Below are positions 16,289 to 20,957 of a DNA stretch of 64,000 nt, piece by piece. The stretch comes from Tellurirhabdus bombi. GTDB lineage: Bacteria; Bacteroidota; Bacteroidia; Cytophagales; Spirosomataceae. Numbering within the stretch: the first letter of the stretch is position 1; each line of letters starts with the position of its first letter. The position numbers were made by a program, and so were the translations under genes. Location: NCBI RefSeq assembly GCF_021484805.1, contig NZ_CP090557.1:124001-188000 (forward strand), given 5' to 3'. Under the pieces are notes generated by a model. The model did not search any database. It was not told the DNA's origin and worked only from the letters and a program-made list of their open reading frames with translations.

Positions 16289-16840
16289 TTAGTTAACCGT
16301 CAGATTGAACTCAACTTCAATATCGTTGGACCCGGGCGCGGGTGTTCCATCTTTGGTTCCTGACTGGTGGCGCAGCTGCACCCGGAATTTACCTGTACCT
16401 GCCGCCGCAGTTCGCAGGGAGCCAGTCAGTCCTACGTTCAAATTTTTTGAATCTTTATCCCCGTACGTATACGTCCCTAAACCTGCGGGTGTAATGGTGT
16501 AGACAAAAAGGTGCTCATCCTTTTTCTCCTCTATCTCGCTCGTAATATTTTCCGACGGGTTTTTACTTTCGTCCAGTACCTCAACATCCAGCCGGTAGGT
16601 CGTATTGGCTTTTAGCGTAATGTTGTCAAATTTAGAAGGGGCCTGTCCGCCTTCACCATCGGCATCCCGAAACGTAAACGTTTGTTGATTGGACGTTCCC
16701 GACTCTGTGAATTTTAAATTGAGCGTTGTAATCAGTTCGTTTTCATCCTGTGGCTCAGGGTTATCTGCTTTGTCACAACTTGTTACCAGGACCGTTCCCA
16801 ATAGGAAAAAACCCAGCCAAGACGATTTTAATTTGTTCAT
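16289..16840 (-). CDS. Small lipoprotein ('type 1 periplasmic binding fold' label)
   Basis: A 183-residue lipoprotein: lipobox LVTSC at residues 18-22, then a short acidic linker and a beta-rich domain (LITTLNLKFTESG, FDNITLKANTTYRLDVEVLDES, ENITSEIEEKKDEHLFVYT). Small Bacteroidota lipoproteins with this pattern carry the database label type 1 periplasmic binding fold superfamily; their role is not established. The gene is divergent from a MerC gene, and both promoters are overlapped by 17-bp palindromes, so it is likely regulated with metal supply. A perfect -7 element (TATTTTTG, minus strand 16919-16912) overlaps the first palindrome. Confidence 0.6.
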   Translation of the reverse strand: MNKLKSSWLGFFLLGTVLVTSCDKADNPEPQDENELITTLNLKFTESGTSNQQTFTFRDADGEGGQAPSKFDNITLKANTTYRLDVEVLDESKNPSENITSEIEEKKDEHLFVYTITPAGLGTYTYGDKDSKNLNVGLTGSLRTAAAGTGKFRVQLRHQSGTKDGTPAPGSNDIEVEFNLTVN

Positions 16841-16897: not shown

Positions 16898-17011
16898 TTG
16901 CAATATTGTTGCAAAAATAAATGCAACTTTATTGCATCATTGCTGGTTTACTACTCCGAAAGCAGCCACGCTGCATTTTATGTCAAAATATCCCTTGCAA
17001 CAGCGTTGCAT
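16898..17011. promoter_or_regulatory. Cluster of 17-bp operator-like palindromes (Fur/Zur type)
   Basis: Three sites share the shape TTGCAAC-N3-GTTGCAA: TTGCAATATTGTTGCAA (16898-16914), ATGCAACTTTATTGCAT (16921-16937) and TTGCAACAGCGTTGCAT (16995-17011). A fourth, weaker one is AAGCAGCCACGCTGCAT (16960-16976). The first overlaps the lipoprotein -7 element, the second lies in its spacer, and the third contains the TTG -33 element (17006-17008) of the MerC promoter. Size and sequence fit a Fur-family repressor, probably Zur; that assignment is inference. Confidence 0.65.
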
Positions 17012-17036
17012 ATTTTCAAGGTAACGCCTATTTTTG
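17006..17036 (+). promoter_or_regulatory. Promoter of the MerC gene
   Basis: TTG at 17006-17008 and a perfect TATTTTTG at 17029-17036, 20 nt apart. The start point near 17043 excludes the alternative TTG start at 17034 and supports ATG 17061. Confidence 0.55.
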
Positions 17037-17060: not shown

Positions 17061-17441
17061 ATGAAGATTGATCTTTTATCGAAAAAAGCAGATTACGTTG
17101 GTATTACAGGCTCTGTTCTGTGCGTTATTCACTGTTTGATTACGCCTGTATTATTGATGACAACGGCCCTGGCCAATGACCATGCCTTACGCGATGGCTA
17201 CCTAAGTCTGGATTATGTTTTTATCGGGATCAATATCATAGCCGTTTATTCGGCGACCCGCCACAATACGTCTCCGCTGATTAAAAAAGCACTGTGGGGT
17301 TTTCTATCCCTGTTTGTCGTGGCGCTAGTGCTTGAAGAAGTTTCTCCTATTTTTGAATACCTGGCTTATACGGCCTCAGCGGGCTTGGTGGTGACGCATT
17401 TTGCCAATATTCGGTATTGCCGCCTAAAGCACAGCCACTAA
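17061..17441 (+). CDS. MerC domain membrane protein
   Basis: A 126-residue protein with four predicted helices and the metal-binding motif CVIHC (Cys21, His24, Cys25) at the start of the first helix, as in MerC family proteins. MerC proteins from mer operons move mercury, but there is no merA or merR here, and chromosomal Bacteroidota MerC proteins are usually tied to normal metal homeostasis. The Fur/Zur-like palindrome over its promoter points to a zinc-starvation role. The start is taken at ATG 17061 because the promoter lies just upstream. Confidence 0.8.
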   Translation: MKIDLLSKKADYVGITGSVLCVIHCLITPVLLMTTALANDHALRDGYLSLDYVFIGINIIAVYSATRHNTSPLIKKALWGFLSLFVVALVLEEVSPIFEYLAYTASAGLVVTHFANIRYCRLKHSH

Positions 17442-17584: not shown

Positions 17585-18784
17585 ATGCATTTTTTTCGGG
17601 ATATTGTATTTCTTACTAGCCTTTGCTTTTTGAGTGGCAGTATTGATGCTCAATTAGCGCCCCTGGAAGTAGCCACAGAATCCATTGCTCACGTAGCCAC
17701 TCATCGTCCAATTCACCGAGCAACAGCGCAGGTGTCTGTCAAGGTCGGCATGGAAAACCACCTGTTTGCCTCGTATATTCTGGCAACAGCAGCTCTGGCC
17801 GAAAAAAATGATGCATATACGCTTGGTGAGGGGGATGGTTTGGTGGCGGTGTTTGTGCAAAATCCAACGCCTGATACCCACGTTCGGGTAGAGGTTAGCT
17901 CAACGCCATTTAGTGAAGCCGCTTCGTACGAAGGCATCCTGCTAGAAGCTGGACGCCAATACCAAGTTACGCCGCAACTCGCCTGGGATTACGAGAAACT
18001 GCGCCGACTTAACCAACCTACACCCATTAATTTTACCATCACTACTTTTGTTGATGAAGTAAAAGTAGGGCACAAAACGGTGGTTGCCACGCTCCGCTCT
18101 ATCAATGACTGCCCGTATTTTTGGGAAGAAAAAGGCCATCCAAAAGGAAATATTGACATGAATTATATGTATACCGCTTACGTCAACGAAGACGATCCAG
18201 TGGTGGATAAAATTCTGTCCGAGGCCTTGCAAACAGGCATTGTCCCCGCTTTCGATGGCTACCAGTCTGATGATGTCAAAGCAGTGGACGATCAGGTATT
18301 TGCCATCTGGTACGCAATGCAAAAACACGGAATTCGCTACAGCTCGATTTCAACGAACTCCAGCACAGGCACTTCCCCAACTTTATACAGCCAGCGCATT
18401 CGGCTGGTCGACCAAACCTGGGATCTACGTCAGGCCAATTGCGCCGATGCGATGGTTTTATTTGCTTCGGTATTGCGTTCCATTCACATCGAGCCGGTTA
18501 TTATTTTATTTCCTGACCACTGTTTTCTAGGGTACTACCGCGACGGCGCACGCAAAGATTTTGCGTGTCTGGAAACCTCCATGGTTGGTGAACTGGATTT
18601 GAAAAAGATACCGCAAGTGAAACGCATAAAAGCTTCCCGGCAATTGTTTGCTACGGCCCGTTCCCGCGCCCAGCGTCAATTTAATGAGTCGAAAGAAGTC
18701 TTGGTGTCGAATAAAGAGCAGCACTACCGCTTTATCGCTCTTTCGGATGAGCGAAGATCAGGCATTCGGCCAATTGGTCGTTAA
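17585..18784 (+). CDS. Secreted transglutaminase-like protein
   Basis: A 399-residue protein with a signal peptide (MHFFRDIVFLTSLCFLSGSIDA). Residues 275-320 have the core of a transglutaminase-like cysteine domain: DLRQANCADAMVLFASVLRS with Cys286, then IILFPDHCFLGYY with His312, followed by DFACLET. The region before it (residues 45-175) is beta-rich and may be an Ig-like domain. Such proteins in bacteria act as amidases or proteases on cell-surface substrates, but the substrate here is unknown. A strong terminator follows 10 nt after the stop. Confidence 0.6.
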   Translation: MHFFRDIVFLTSLCFLSGSIDAQLAPLEVATESIAHVATHRPIHRATAQVSVKVGMENHLFASYILATAALAEKNDAYTLGEGDGLVAVFVQNPTPDTHVRVEVSSTPFSEAASYEGILLEAGRQYQVTPQLAWDYEKLRRLNQPTPINFTITTFVDEVKVGHKTVVATLRSINDCPYFWEEKGHPKGNIDMNYMYTAYVNEDDPVVDKILSEALQTGIVPAFDGYQSDDVKAVDDQVFAIWYAMQKHGIRYSSISTNSSTGTSPTLYSQRIRLVDQTWDLRQANCADAMVLFASVLRSIHIEPVIILFPDHCFLGYYRDGARKDFACLETSMVGELDLKKIPQVKRIKASRQLFATARSRAQRQFNESKEVLVSNKEQHYRFIALSDERRSGIRPIGR

Positions 18785-18848: not shown

Positions 18849-20183
18849 TTATTCTTCTGCGAGGGTTCTCGAAATGTTCATCCGATAGATACCTAGGGCC
18901 GGTAGAGCCGCTGCCACAATGCCAACCGTTACCGCCACGCCCAACACCAGCCACTCTTCGGGCAAAATAGCCAGATTGGCCAACGTATAATGATAACTGC
19001 TCTCTACCCGCGCCGAGAATAAAAGGAGTCCTGCCCGACTAACAACGAGTCCCAGTACAAAGCCAATTAAGGCTAGCACCAAGCCTTCCAGTAAGAGCAT
19101 CCCGAAGAGTTGCGTCCGGGTAGCCCCCATCGACAGCATCAATGCCATTTCGTACTTGCGTTCTTTCAGGGAGTTATAAAGCGACACAAATACACTGATT
19201 CCCGAGATGATCATGATGGCAATAGCCAGTCCGCGCAGGGTCTCTACGCCTACACCTAACAAGGAAAACAACCGATCAATTTCGATAGCGGGCAAAGCAG
19301 CCTGCATCTTTGAATTCATATTGACGCTACGCATTAGCATCATTCCCAGCGGATTGCGGAATTTAATCAGCATACTCGTGATTTCACGGTGGTCGCCGTG
19401 CTCTTCCCCTTCTTCGTGATGCTCTTCTTCCTGAGGCGGCGGTCCTGGTACGGCCAACATCGGCATTCGGCCACTTCGTTTAGCCACGGCTGGCTGTTCT
19501 GCTACCGGAGCAGGGCTAGCCTTTGCTTCCCCGGCGGGTTCGTCCTCGTGTTTCTCCCCTTCTTCGTGGTGGTCGTGAATGGCCCACACACTCGAAATAT
19601 CCGTCAAAATCAGTTGATCAACTACGCTATTACTCGGCTTGAAAATGCCCACCACTTTGTATTTCGAATCCCCGTGCTCTTCCCCTTCCGCATCCAGTCC
19701 GTGGGAGCTGGCAAACTCATCGCCAATTTTTAAACCAGTAATCTGGGCCACCCGCGCACCGACTGTTACTTCCAGCGCCTTCTTAAATAGCTTTCCTTCC
19801 TCAACCGATGCCCCATAATGATCGACGTATCGTTTATCCGTTCCAACAATGCGAAACGATTGGTAATTGTCGCCCATTGACAGCGGAATGGCCGTTTTTA
19901 CCATTGGGTTTTTAGCCAGTCTCTCCGCCTCCTCCAACGGAATATTACCCGTCGGCGCATCGATCTGGTAAATGCTCGATAGAATTAACTGCAACGGACT
20001 GCCTTTTGCGCCCACCACCATATCGACGCCCTTGATATTCCGGCTAAATTGCTCTTCCAGTTGTTTATTCAGTAATAAAAGCAGCGAGATGATGCTGATA
20101 CCCAGGGTCATTAGCAAGCCGCTCAAGAAACTGCTCAGCGGCTTATCTTTCAGGTTAGCCCAACTTATTTTCAGGAGATTCAT
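18849..20183 (-). CDS. ABC transporter permease (FtsX/MacB type) with His-rich loop
   Basis: A 444-residue permease with one N-terminal helix (residues 18-40), a large periplasmic domain, and three C-terminal helices (from about residue 320), the layout of LolC/MacB-type FtsX permeases. An insertion at residues 203-265 is packed with His, Glu and Asp (HDHHEEGEKHEDE, then EEEHHEEGEEHGDH), split by a Pro/Ala linker, and would bind divalent metal. It forms a pair with the ATPase gene 58 nt upstream. Related Zur-regulated FtsX-type transporters exist in Pseudomonas; whether this one handles metal or lipoprotein is open. Confidence 0.8.
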   Translation of the reverse strand: MNLLKISWANLKDKPLSSFLSGLLMTLGISIISLLLLLNKQLEEQFSRNIKGVDMVVGAKGSPLQLILSSIYQIDAPTGNIPLEEAERLAKNPMVKTAIPLSMGDNYQSFRIVGTDKRYVDHYGASVEEGKLFKKALEVTVGARVAQITGLKIGDEFASSHGLDAEGEEHGDSKYKVVGIFKPSNSVVDQLILTDISSVWAIHDHHEEGEKHEDEPAGEAKASPAPVAEQPAVAKRSGRMPMLAVPGPPPQEEEHHEEGEEHGDHREITSMLIKFRNPLGMMLMRSVNMNSKMQAALPAIEIDRLFSLLGVGVETLRGLAIAIMIISGISVFVSLYNSLKERKYEMALMLSMGATRTQLFGMLLLEGLVLALIGFVLGLVVSRAGLLLFSARVESSYHYTLANLAILPEEWLVLGVAVTVGIVAAALPALGIYRMNISRTLAEE

Positions 20184-20241
20184 TGTCGTACGTTTAAAAC
20201 GGTTCTGTCGCGAAGCGTTACTTTGTTAGGATAGTCCCAGG

Positions 20242-20880
20242 TTATAGAAGAACCTGATTGGCGAATTCATCTTTGAGCCGCTGGTCGTGCGTGACGACAA
20301 TGAGACTCGCGCCAATCTGCTCGGATTGTTGCCGCAGCAGCGCTACCACGCGGGCGCAGTTATCGTCGTCCAGACTGGACGTGGGTTCATCGGCCAGAAT
20401 CACCGATCCTTCCGAACCTGTGTGGTTCATCATAGCCCGGGCAATGCTTACCCGTTGCTGTTCACCCTGGCTTAACTGGTGCGTTTTTTTAGCCAGATGA
20501 TCCGCAAAACCCAGTTGCTCCGCCAACTTACGGGCACGATTTTTATCCTGTGATTTCCCAGCTAAATAATTCGCTAGCAACAAATTATCGAGCACCGACA
20601 ACGAACTAACAAAGTGAGGCTTCTGGTAAACGATTCCTACGTGGGCCGCCCGAAAAGCCGCCGTTTCGGCTGGGCTAAGCTGCGTTAAATCTGTTCTGTT
20701 GATTTGAATAGAACCACTTTCAGGTTTGAGCAGCAAGGCCAGAAGATGCAGCAATGTTGTTTTCCCCCGCCCGGATTGACCAAGTATCAGCAGCGCTTCC
20801 CGGTCGTTGCAGTGCAAATCGGGAAATGAGAAGCGTTTATCGGGAGAATACGAAAACGTGAGTTGATGAGAAGTAAGCAT
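20242..20880 (-). CDS. ABC transporter ATP-binding protein (LolD/MacB type)
   Basis: A 212-residue ATPase from the ATG at 20880; a longer frame to 20934 would begin upstream of the predicted transcription start. Walker A is GQSGRGKTT (residues 34-42), the signature is LSQGEQQR and Walker B VILADEPTSSLD, with the switch His in VVTHD. It is the partner of the FtsX-type permease downstream and powers movement of substrate across or out of the inner membrane. Confidence 0.9.
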   Translation of the reverse strand: MLTSHQLTFSYSPDKRFSFPDLHCNDREALLILGQSGRGKTTLLHLLALLLKPESGSIQINRTDLTQLSPAETAAFRAAHVGIVYQKPHFVSSLSVLDNLLLANYLAGKSQDKNRARKLAEQLGFADHLAKKTHQLSQGEQQRVSIARAMMNHTGSEGSVILADEPTSSLDDDNCARVVALLRQQSEQIGASLIVVTHDQRLKDEFANQVLL

Positions 20881-20900
20881 AAGTACCAGATCGGCAAGCC

Positions 20901-20926
20901 CAAAAATAATCATTTCTTGGCTGCAA
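20901..20926 (-). promoter_or_regulatory. Promoter of the ABC transporter operon
   Basis: On the minus strand a perfect TATTTTTG (20908-20901) with TTG (20926-20924) 15 nt upstream. The start point near 20894 gives a 14-nt leader to ATG 20880. Confidence 0.55.
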
Positions 20927-20957
20927 GATGGCAATCAATTTATGCCAAGCCAAGAAA
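20913..20957. promoter_or_regulatory. Inverted repeat upstream of the ABC transporter promoter
   Basis: TTTCTTGGCT at 20913-20922 and its exact complement AGCCAAGAAA at 20948-20957, 25 nt apart. One arm sits between the -33 and -7 elements and the other upstream of -33, as for a regulator that loops or binds as a dimer of dimers. Confidence 0.4.

Follow-up and report, generated by a model that had tools for sequence, protein, structure and literature searches.

What is the function of the palindromic repeats that separate a lipoprotein gene from a merC-family gene in Tellurirhabdus bombi? In the window, by which we mean the whole 64,000-nucleotide stretch of T. bombi DNA analyzed here, the two genes are divergent. 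The lipoprotein gene (16289-16840, minus strand) encodes 183 amino acids of an unmodelled family recognizable by an ENELITT motif and predicted to form a beta-sandwich, and the merC-family gene (17061-17441, plus strand) encodes 126 amino acids that contain a CVIHC motif and match PF03203 at 70.5 bits (cut-off 27.6). The 220-bp stretch between them contains three 17-bp palindromes, not assigned to either strand, that we refer to as candidate Zur-box 1 (TTGCAATATTGTTGCAA, 16898-16914), Zur-box 2 (ATGCAACTTTATTGCAT, 16921-16937, 23 bp from box 1) and Zur-box 3 (TTGCAACAGCGTTGCAT, 16995-17011). All three match the symmetric core TGCAAY-N3-RTTGCA exactly. Using a scoring matrix built solely from sites of other genomes, boxes 1, 2 and 3 reach 26.7, 21.9 and 24.4 bits, respectively, and the next-best place in the 64-kb window reaches 12.1 bits. 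A preliminary description of this DNA had reported an array of four palindromes, and three of these are indeed found where it placed them. The supposed weaker fourth copy, GCAGC-CAC-GCTGC at 16960-16976 (likewise without strand), scores 2.8 bits compared to 21.9-26.7 bits for the others and is absent from the same-genus genome G001 and from three other aligned promoters, and therefore we do not consider it to be a site. A search of the window for TTGCAAN5TTGCAA with 2 mismatches shows no excess, with 6 occurrences observed and 5.74 expected. By a rough Poisson estimate, three such sites would fall by chance within a single 220-bp segment at any point of the genome with a probability of ~3e-10, and the array is not due to chance.

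A genome-wide scan for the box and the genes behind it, as the preliminary description had suggested, detects the exact core TGCAAYNNNRTTGCA (TGCAAY-N3-RTTGCA) at six places in the 4.94-Mb genome, compared with a single occurrence of the reversed control pattern. Three of the six form the array, and two, at 3070411 and 3070926, flank a second MerC gene (domain at C1:3070508-3070831). The remaining site, C1:2328165, is located inside what looks by eye like a dehydrogenase gene, scores 13.1 bits and was set aside. Exact matches alone exceed the control genome-wide. When one mismatch is permitted, counts are no higher than the control (19 versus 20 for TTGCAAN5TTGCAA and 32 versus 37 for TGCAAYN3RTTGCA), and therefore weak single sites mean nothing without conservation.

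The boxes overlap likely or possible promoter elements. The motif TAnnTTTG, which we take to be the -7 consensus of Bacteroidota promoters, is found upstream of merC at 17029-17036 on the plus strand (TATTTTTG), and TAnnTTTG is kept in G001 and in G019. Twenty base pairs further upstream, box 3 holds the likely -33 TTG of merC; by eye, the spacing between this TTG and TAnnTTTG is 20 bp in the window, 20 bp in G001 and 18 bp in G019. On the minus strand, TATTTTTG at 16912-16919 is a possible -7 element of the lipoprotein gene that shares 3 bp with box 1, and box 2 sits in the spacer of this promoter. Because the minus-strand element lacks a good -33 partner and is without an exact counterpart in relatives, the lipoprotein promoter is less sure. 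Of the promoter overlap originally described on both sides, the merC part is borne out, with the likely -33 TTG inside box 3, and the overlap of box 1 with the lipoprotein -7 element is best regarded as provisional. We aligned the window with the corresponding promoters of G001, G019, G009 and G029. Mean column identity across the alignment is 50%; against this diverged background, the segment running from box 1 through the short spacer to box 2 is conspicuous. Box 1 is kept in all 4 relatives, and the start-to-start distance between boxes 1 and 2 is 23 bp in the window, G001, G019 and G009 and 22 bp in G029. Box 3, together with the merC TAnnTTTG, is also kept in G001 and G019.

Retention of the box sequence in otherwise diverged promoters bears on whether the repeats might be transcription-termination or mRNA stem-loops rather than operators. 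Three terminator-like matches are detected in the region, whereas 0.3 are expected in shuffled sequence. However, two of these consist of box sequence (16908-16927 and 16996-17010) and the third is the unconserved fourth palindrome. Furthermore, in many loci the boxes are upstream of gene starts and between divergent genes, and we give the stem-loop explanation a negligible chance.

Absence of the sites from orthologous loci had been named in advance as evidence against an operator. Instead, most merC orthologues carry boxes, both within the family and order and elsewhere in the class. In a set of 59 related genomes that includes T. bombi, 39 contain MerC matches, 47 in total. A box with no more than 1 mismatch lies within 250 bp upstream of the MerC domain at 40 of the 47 matches, and the box is exact at 32. 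At the same 47 matches the reversed pattern is found at none, the 400 bp downstream contain a box at one, and 40 rounds of dinucleotide shuffles gave a mean of 0.6 and a maximum of 2. Five of the seven misses (in G030, G013, G025, G012 and G034) are operons in which the box precedes the first gene, which encodes a lipoprotein in two cases and an AztD-like protein in three (L156, named by clustering, and L176 and L177, named by eye). Another miss is in G043, a genome that lacks the presumed Zur described below, and the last, G009:C4, is a match below the Pfam cut-off. For the same class outside the order, we examined all 18 MerC matches, from 17 genomes, with 198 genomes searched in the phylum. 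A box is found directly upstream of 15, and 2 more carry a box before the preceding same-strand gene. The one without a box (G114) also lacks CxxHC; it was counted as a miss, as was the sub-cut-off G009 match. Outside the class, none of the best-scoring 23 of 49 MerC matches has a box directly before MerC, and at one such locus (L210) a one-mismatch site precedes a Fur-like gene that is itself followed by merC. Given 15 of 18 direct sites within the class outside the order versus 0 of 23 outside the class, the box, for merC at least, looks like a trait of the class and not of the wider phylum.

MerC is known from mercury-resistance operons and was named for mercury uptake, and 17-bp dyads fit several regulator families. 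It is therefore conceivable that an unrelated mercury or heavy-metal regulator of the MerR, ArsR or MarR type binds the boxes and that MerC is a mercury-uptake protein here. However, there is no mer-family protein among the five neighboring proteins scanned, and no protein in the T. bombi genome exceeds the cut-off for MerA, with three flavoproteins reaching 275-364 of 454 bits. Instead, the genes that recur near boxes are zur, AztD-like and CobW genes, and we regard a mercury regulator as highly improbable. The CxxHC motif is invariant in 14 aligned MerC homologues.

We favor a zinc-sensing Fur-family protein as the binder of the boxes. T. bombi has three Fur-family proteins, and the most likely candidate, judged by its relatives and their genomic company, is the divergent member encoded at C1:1773063-1773476 (G000:C1:1773063-1773476; PF01475, 42.9 bits versus a cut-off of 23.1), hereafter the presumed Zur. 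The other two are 23% and 26% identical to it and have higher Fur-model scores. In seven members of the family, a Fur-type gene of this divergent subgroup is arranged divergently from merC with the box in between, and the presumed Zur is 58-65% identical to the encoded proteins. Its best PDB match, 2o03, carries the name zinc uptake regulation protein FurB (E 5e-5), and a Fur follows almost level at 5.5e-5. The presumed Zur has a Cys, missing from both paralogues, that aligns with a Cys of 2o03 that we take to be a zinc ligand. The NCBIfam Zur model gives 27.3 of 167 bits and a Fur model gives more, 32.4 bits; for the G025 orthologue the Zur model is the best, at 34.9 bits. Judged on sequence only, the protein is thus not clearly of the Zur type.

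The number of boxes follows the presence of this protein. A profile of the presumed Zur group is found in 50 of the 59 genomes at E<1e-40, and these 50 contain 228 exact sites versus 21 control sites, compared to 13 versus 4 in the 9 genomes without it (Mann-Whitney p 0.0005, or 0.0013 for same-order genomes only, significance that is overstated because the genomes are related). Two genomes without this Zur, G038 and G050, nevertheless have 4 and 5 exact sites, with one control site each. The sites, their conservation, the genes that accompany them and their co-occurrence with this Fur-family protein are direct observations. In other genomes boxes precede zur itself. In T. bombi, the presumed zur gene is far from merC, and the surrounding 14 kb contains no site within 1 mismatch. 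A zur frame with one in-frame TAA is present in G023 (C18:20170-20586, L129), a genome that has no exact box; regulon decay or an assembly error are both possible.

In order to list the putative regulon, we read the surroundings of all 70 exact sites in nine genomes (T. bombi and eight others). A recurrent gene family adjoins 57 of the sites; MerC, TonB receptor, AztD-like, Zur, CobW or ABC-2 genes adjoin 46, and 13 adjoin none of the named families. Counted by BLAST clusters, in which one site may count for two genes, the families are MerC (17 sites), the ENELITT lipoprotein (16), AztD-like (12), TonB receptor (7), Zur (6), CobW (5), a flavoprotein (5), a small lipoprotein (3), ABC-2 ATPase (3), ABC-2 permease (1) and FtsX-type permease (1). 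Each name is based on a single member or a few members of the family: MerC was named by PF03203, CobW by PF02492, the ABC-2 genes by PF12040/DUF3526 and ABC-2, and the AztD-like family, which consists of lipoproteins, by a PDB sequence match to AztD (E 1.4e-23). AztD (PDB 6cmk, 6n01) is a zinc chaperone. In T. bombi, a one-mismatch box is located ~45 bp before a TonB receptor gene (L066:7008-9344; PF07715/PF00593), the product of which matches the ZnuD model NF038289 at 117.3 bits versus a cut-off of 950; a TonB-type protein from G032 has no PDB sequence match. Genes for zinc uptake or sparing are found among the putative targets, namely the AztD-like, CobW/COG0523 and ABC-2/DUF3526 genes and, in T. 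bombi, the ZnuD-like receptor. Passages of Haas et al. (PMC2770081) connect Zur sites, in many bacteria, with a subgroup of COG0523. Among ORFs of at least 60 amino acids, we noticed neither ZnuABC nor a paralogue of a ribosomal protein at these sites; small ribosomal-protein paralogues may have escaped this listing.

These families help to decide between Zur and the two classical Fur/PerR-type proteins, which would make the boxes iron- or peroxide-responsive. It is true that the genome has three Fur-family proteins to choose from, that models of Fur and of Zur fit the presumed Zur about equally well, and that the TonB receptor scores higher with a heme-receptor model than with the ZnuD model (136 versus 117 bits). 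However, the downstream families include the zinc markers AztD-like and CobW/COG0523, and apart from TonB receptors no recurrent iron-uptake family was recognized in the clusters. In addition, it is the divergent Fur subgroup that is encoded across the box from merC in the seven family members, and the 2o03-aligned Cys sets the presumed Zur apart from the other two proteins. Binding by a classical Fur or PerR is therefore very unlikely, and Zur remains the preferred reading.

Several other genes near boxes deserve mention. A thioredoxin-reductase-like FAD/NAD(P) oxidoreductase is encoded within the second merC operon of T. bombi (L064:9451-10362), and in other genomes a similar flavoprotein is found directly behind a box, at L075, L090, L093, L098, L140, L151, L157, L166 and L171. 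Small lipoproteins of a second family (motif HNEA.EI...EP.IE.LDSL, by eye) follow boxes at L064:8993-9451, L139, L156 and L160, and often adjoin MerC or MerC-like membrane proteins. Downstream of merC in the window, 17585-18784 encodes a secreted-looking protein of 399 amino acids that partially matches the NCBIfam model 'anti-phage protein ProA' (92 of 1500 bits), and a similar gene follows merC in G001. Further downstream, 18849-20934 encodes an FtsX-like permease, the loops of which are rich in His, together with an ABC ATPase, and no box is found upstream. Because similar genes (by eye) in G019 (L143, permease) and G042 (L087/L180, ATPase and permease) have an exact box ~80 bp upstream, the pair in the window may be zinc-related too.

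The 183-aa lipoprotein matches 0 Pfam and 0 NCBIfam models, a lipoprotein profile has no PDB sequence match, and four Pfam families each match one of 15 homologues, weakly. An AlphaFold2 model predicts a beta-sandwich with a mean pLDDT of 84.6. Fold searches returned generic beta-sandwich or weak Ig-like resemblances (best Z 9.1, to a nuclear-pore chain; best Foldseek E 2.9e-3), and we did not use them to assign function. The closest homologues are Larkinella proteins that are 60-66% identical. Among the best 80 of 94 homologous places in the named genomes, 52 have a box within 350 bp upstream (50 exact; reversed control 1), 21 further loci are beside a box-bearing TonB, cobW, zur or merC gene (by eye), and 7 more distant ones (L274, L275, L279, L280, L288, L295 and L296) have no convincing site. 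Neighbors in the best 80 include MerC at 43 loci, a TonB receptor at 34, zur at 10, cobW at 6 and AztD-like genes at 2. The proposal, made when the locus was first described, that this lipoprotein is a zinc-starvation protein is very probably correct, as judged from the sites at homologous loci. Given the boxes and neighboring genes at those loci, our best guess is a role in zinc acquisition, probably together with the TonB receptor.

Taken together, we estimate a probability of roughly 0.92 that the palindromes are operators, or Zur boxes, of a zinc-sensing Fur-family repressor. This reading was originally drawn from the size of the sites and the CVIHC motif, and now gains support from boxes before zur, AztD-like, CobW and ABC-2/DUF3526 genes. 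Since the box precedes merC orthologues, zur itself and independent zinc markers, comparison among genomes strongly supports TTGCAAC-N3-GTTGCAA as the box that Zur recognizes in Bacteroidia. What we infer is which protein binds, that it represses, and that zinc is the signal. When zinc is sufficient, Zur-Zn dimers on box 3 would cover the merC -33 region and dimers on the pair of boxes 1 and 2, which at 23 bp apart should have room for two dimers side by side, would cover the lipoprotein promoter, so that neither gene would be expressed. Zinc shortage would release Zur, and both genes would then be expressed along with the second merC operon and the gene for the ZnuD-like TonB receptor. The TonB receptor and the lipoprotein might then take zinc across the outer membrane. 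The CxxHC MerC protein could help zinc across the inner membrane, the least certain step, which is suggested by the invariant CxxHC and by ZnuA (PF01297) not being found in the T. bombi genome in a search that was positive in 11 of 14 control genomes. More tentatively, and on balance doubtfully, Bacteroidia might have a system of their own that combines this box with a CxxHC MerC protein acting as inner-membrane zinc importer instead of ZnuABC and with a new family of surface or periplasmic lipoproteins as partners of a ZnuD-like TonB receptor.

The zinc-starvation gene set of Bacteroidia has apparently been undescribed so far. No Zur box for Bacteroidota was found in the literature searched, which included sections of PMC9976891, and an earlier computed RegPrecise motif is possible; in the text of a Zur review (PMC6103462), words beginning with Bacteroid or Flavobacter occur 0 times. 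The operator sequence would allow zinc regulons to be read directly from the genomes of a major bacterial class, would shift proteins that now carry the mercury-resistance MerC annotation to a probable role in zinc homeostasis, and offers a first functional lead for the unmodelled lipoprotein family and for the box-following thioredoxin-reductase-like flavoprotein.

How does this putative regulon compare with known systems? Compared to the mer operons, MerC of T. bombi likewise exceeds the PF03203 cut-off, but the mer neighbors are missing from the five proteins scanned and the operator is of the zinc type. The box-following lipoprotein family that matches AztD precedes MerC in an apparent operon in three genomes. 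Relative to the zinc-piracy receptor ZnuD (NF038289), the T. bombi receptor is ZnuD-like only, far below the 950-bit cut-off. Like the Zur regulons covered in the relevant sections of PMC6103462, the arrangement proposed here involves a Fur-family protein and palindromic boxes over promoter elements, and by our own comparison each half-site, GCAAY, agrees with the RNNNY motif that those sections give for E. coli Zur. The box itself, TTGCAAC-N3-GTTGCAA, has a 7-3-7 layout, as opposed to the 9-1-9, 7-1-7 or 23-bp examples in the same sections. Zur targets listed there for Proteobacteria, Firmicutes, Actinobacteria and Cyanobacteria include TonB receptors, COG0523 GTPases, azt and ABC zinc systems. 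In Caulobacter, the regulon passages of PMC4176598 describe TonB receptors together with znuGHI, an ATPase/permease set of the ABC-2 type; similarly, ABC-2 ATPase and DUF3526 permease genes follow boxes in Bacteroidia. However, the Caulobacter motif in those passages is GTTA-5N-TAAC, unlike the Bacteroidia box, and MerC does not appear in them. Zur regulons as such are well known. In contrast to them, MerC and the ENELITT lipoprotein are core members here and no ZnuA was found in T. bombi; relative to the literature searched, the novelty lies in the class's own box and in the inclusion of MerC and the lipoprotein in the regulon.
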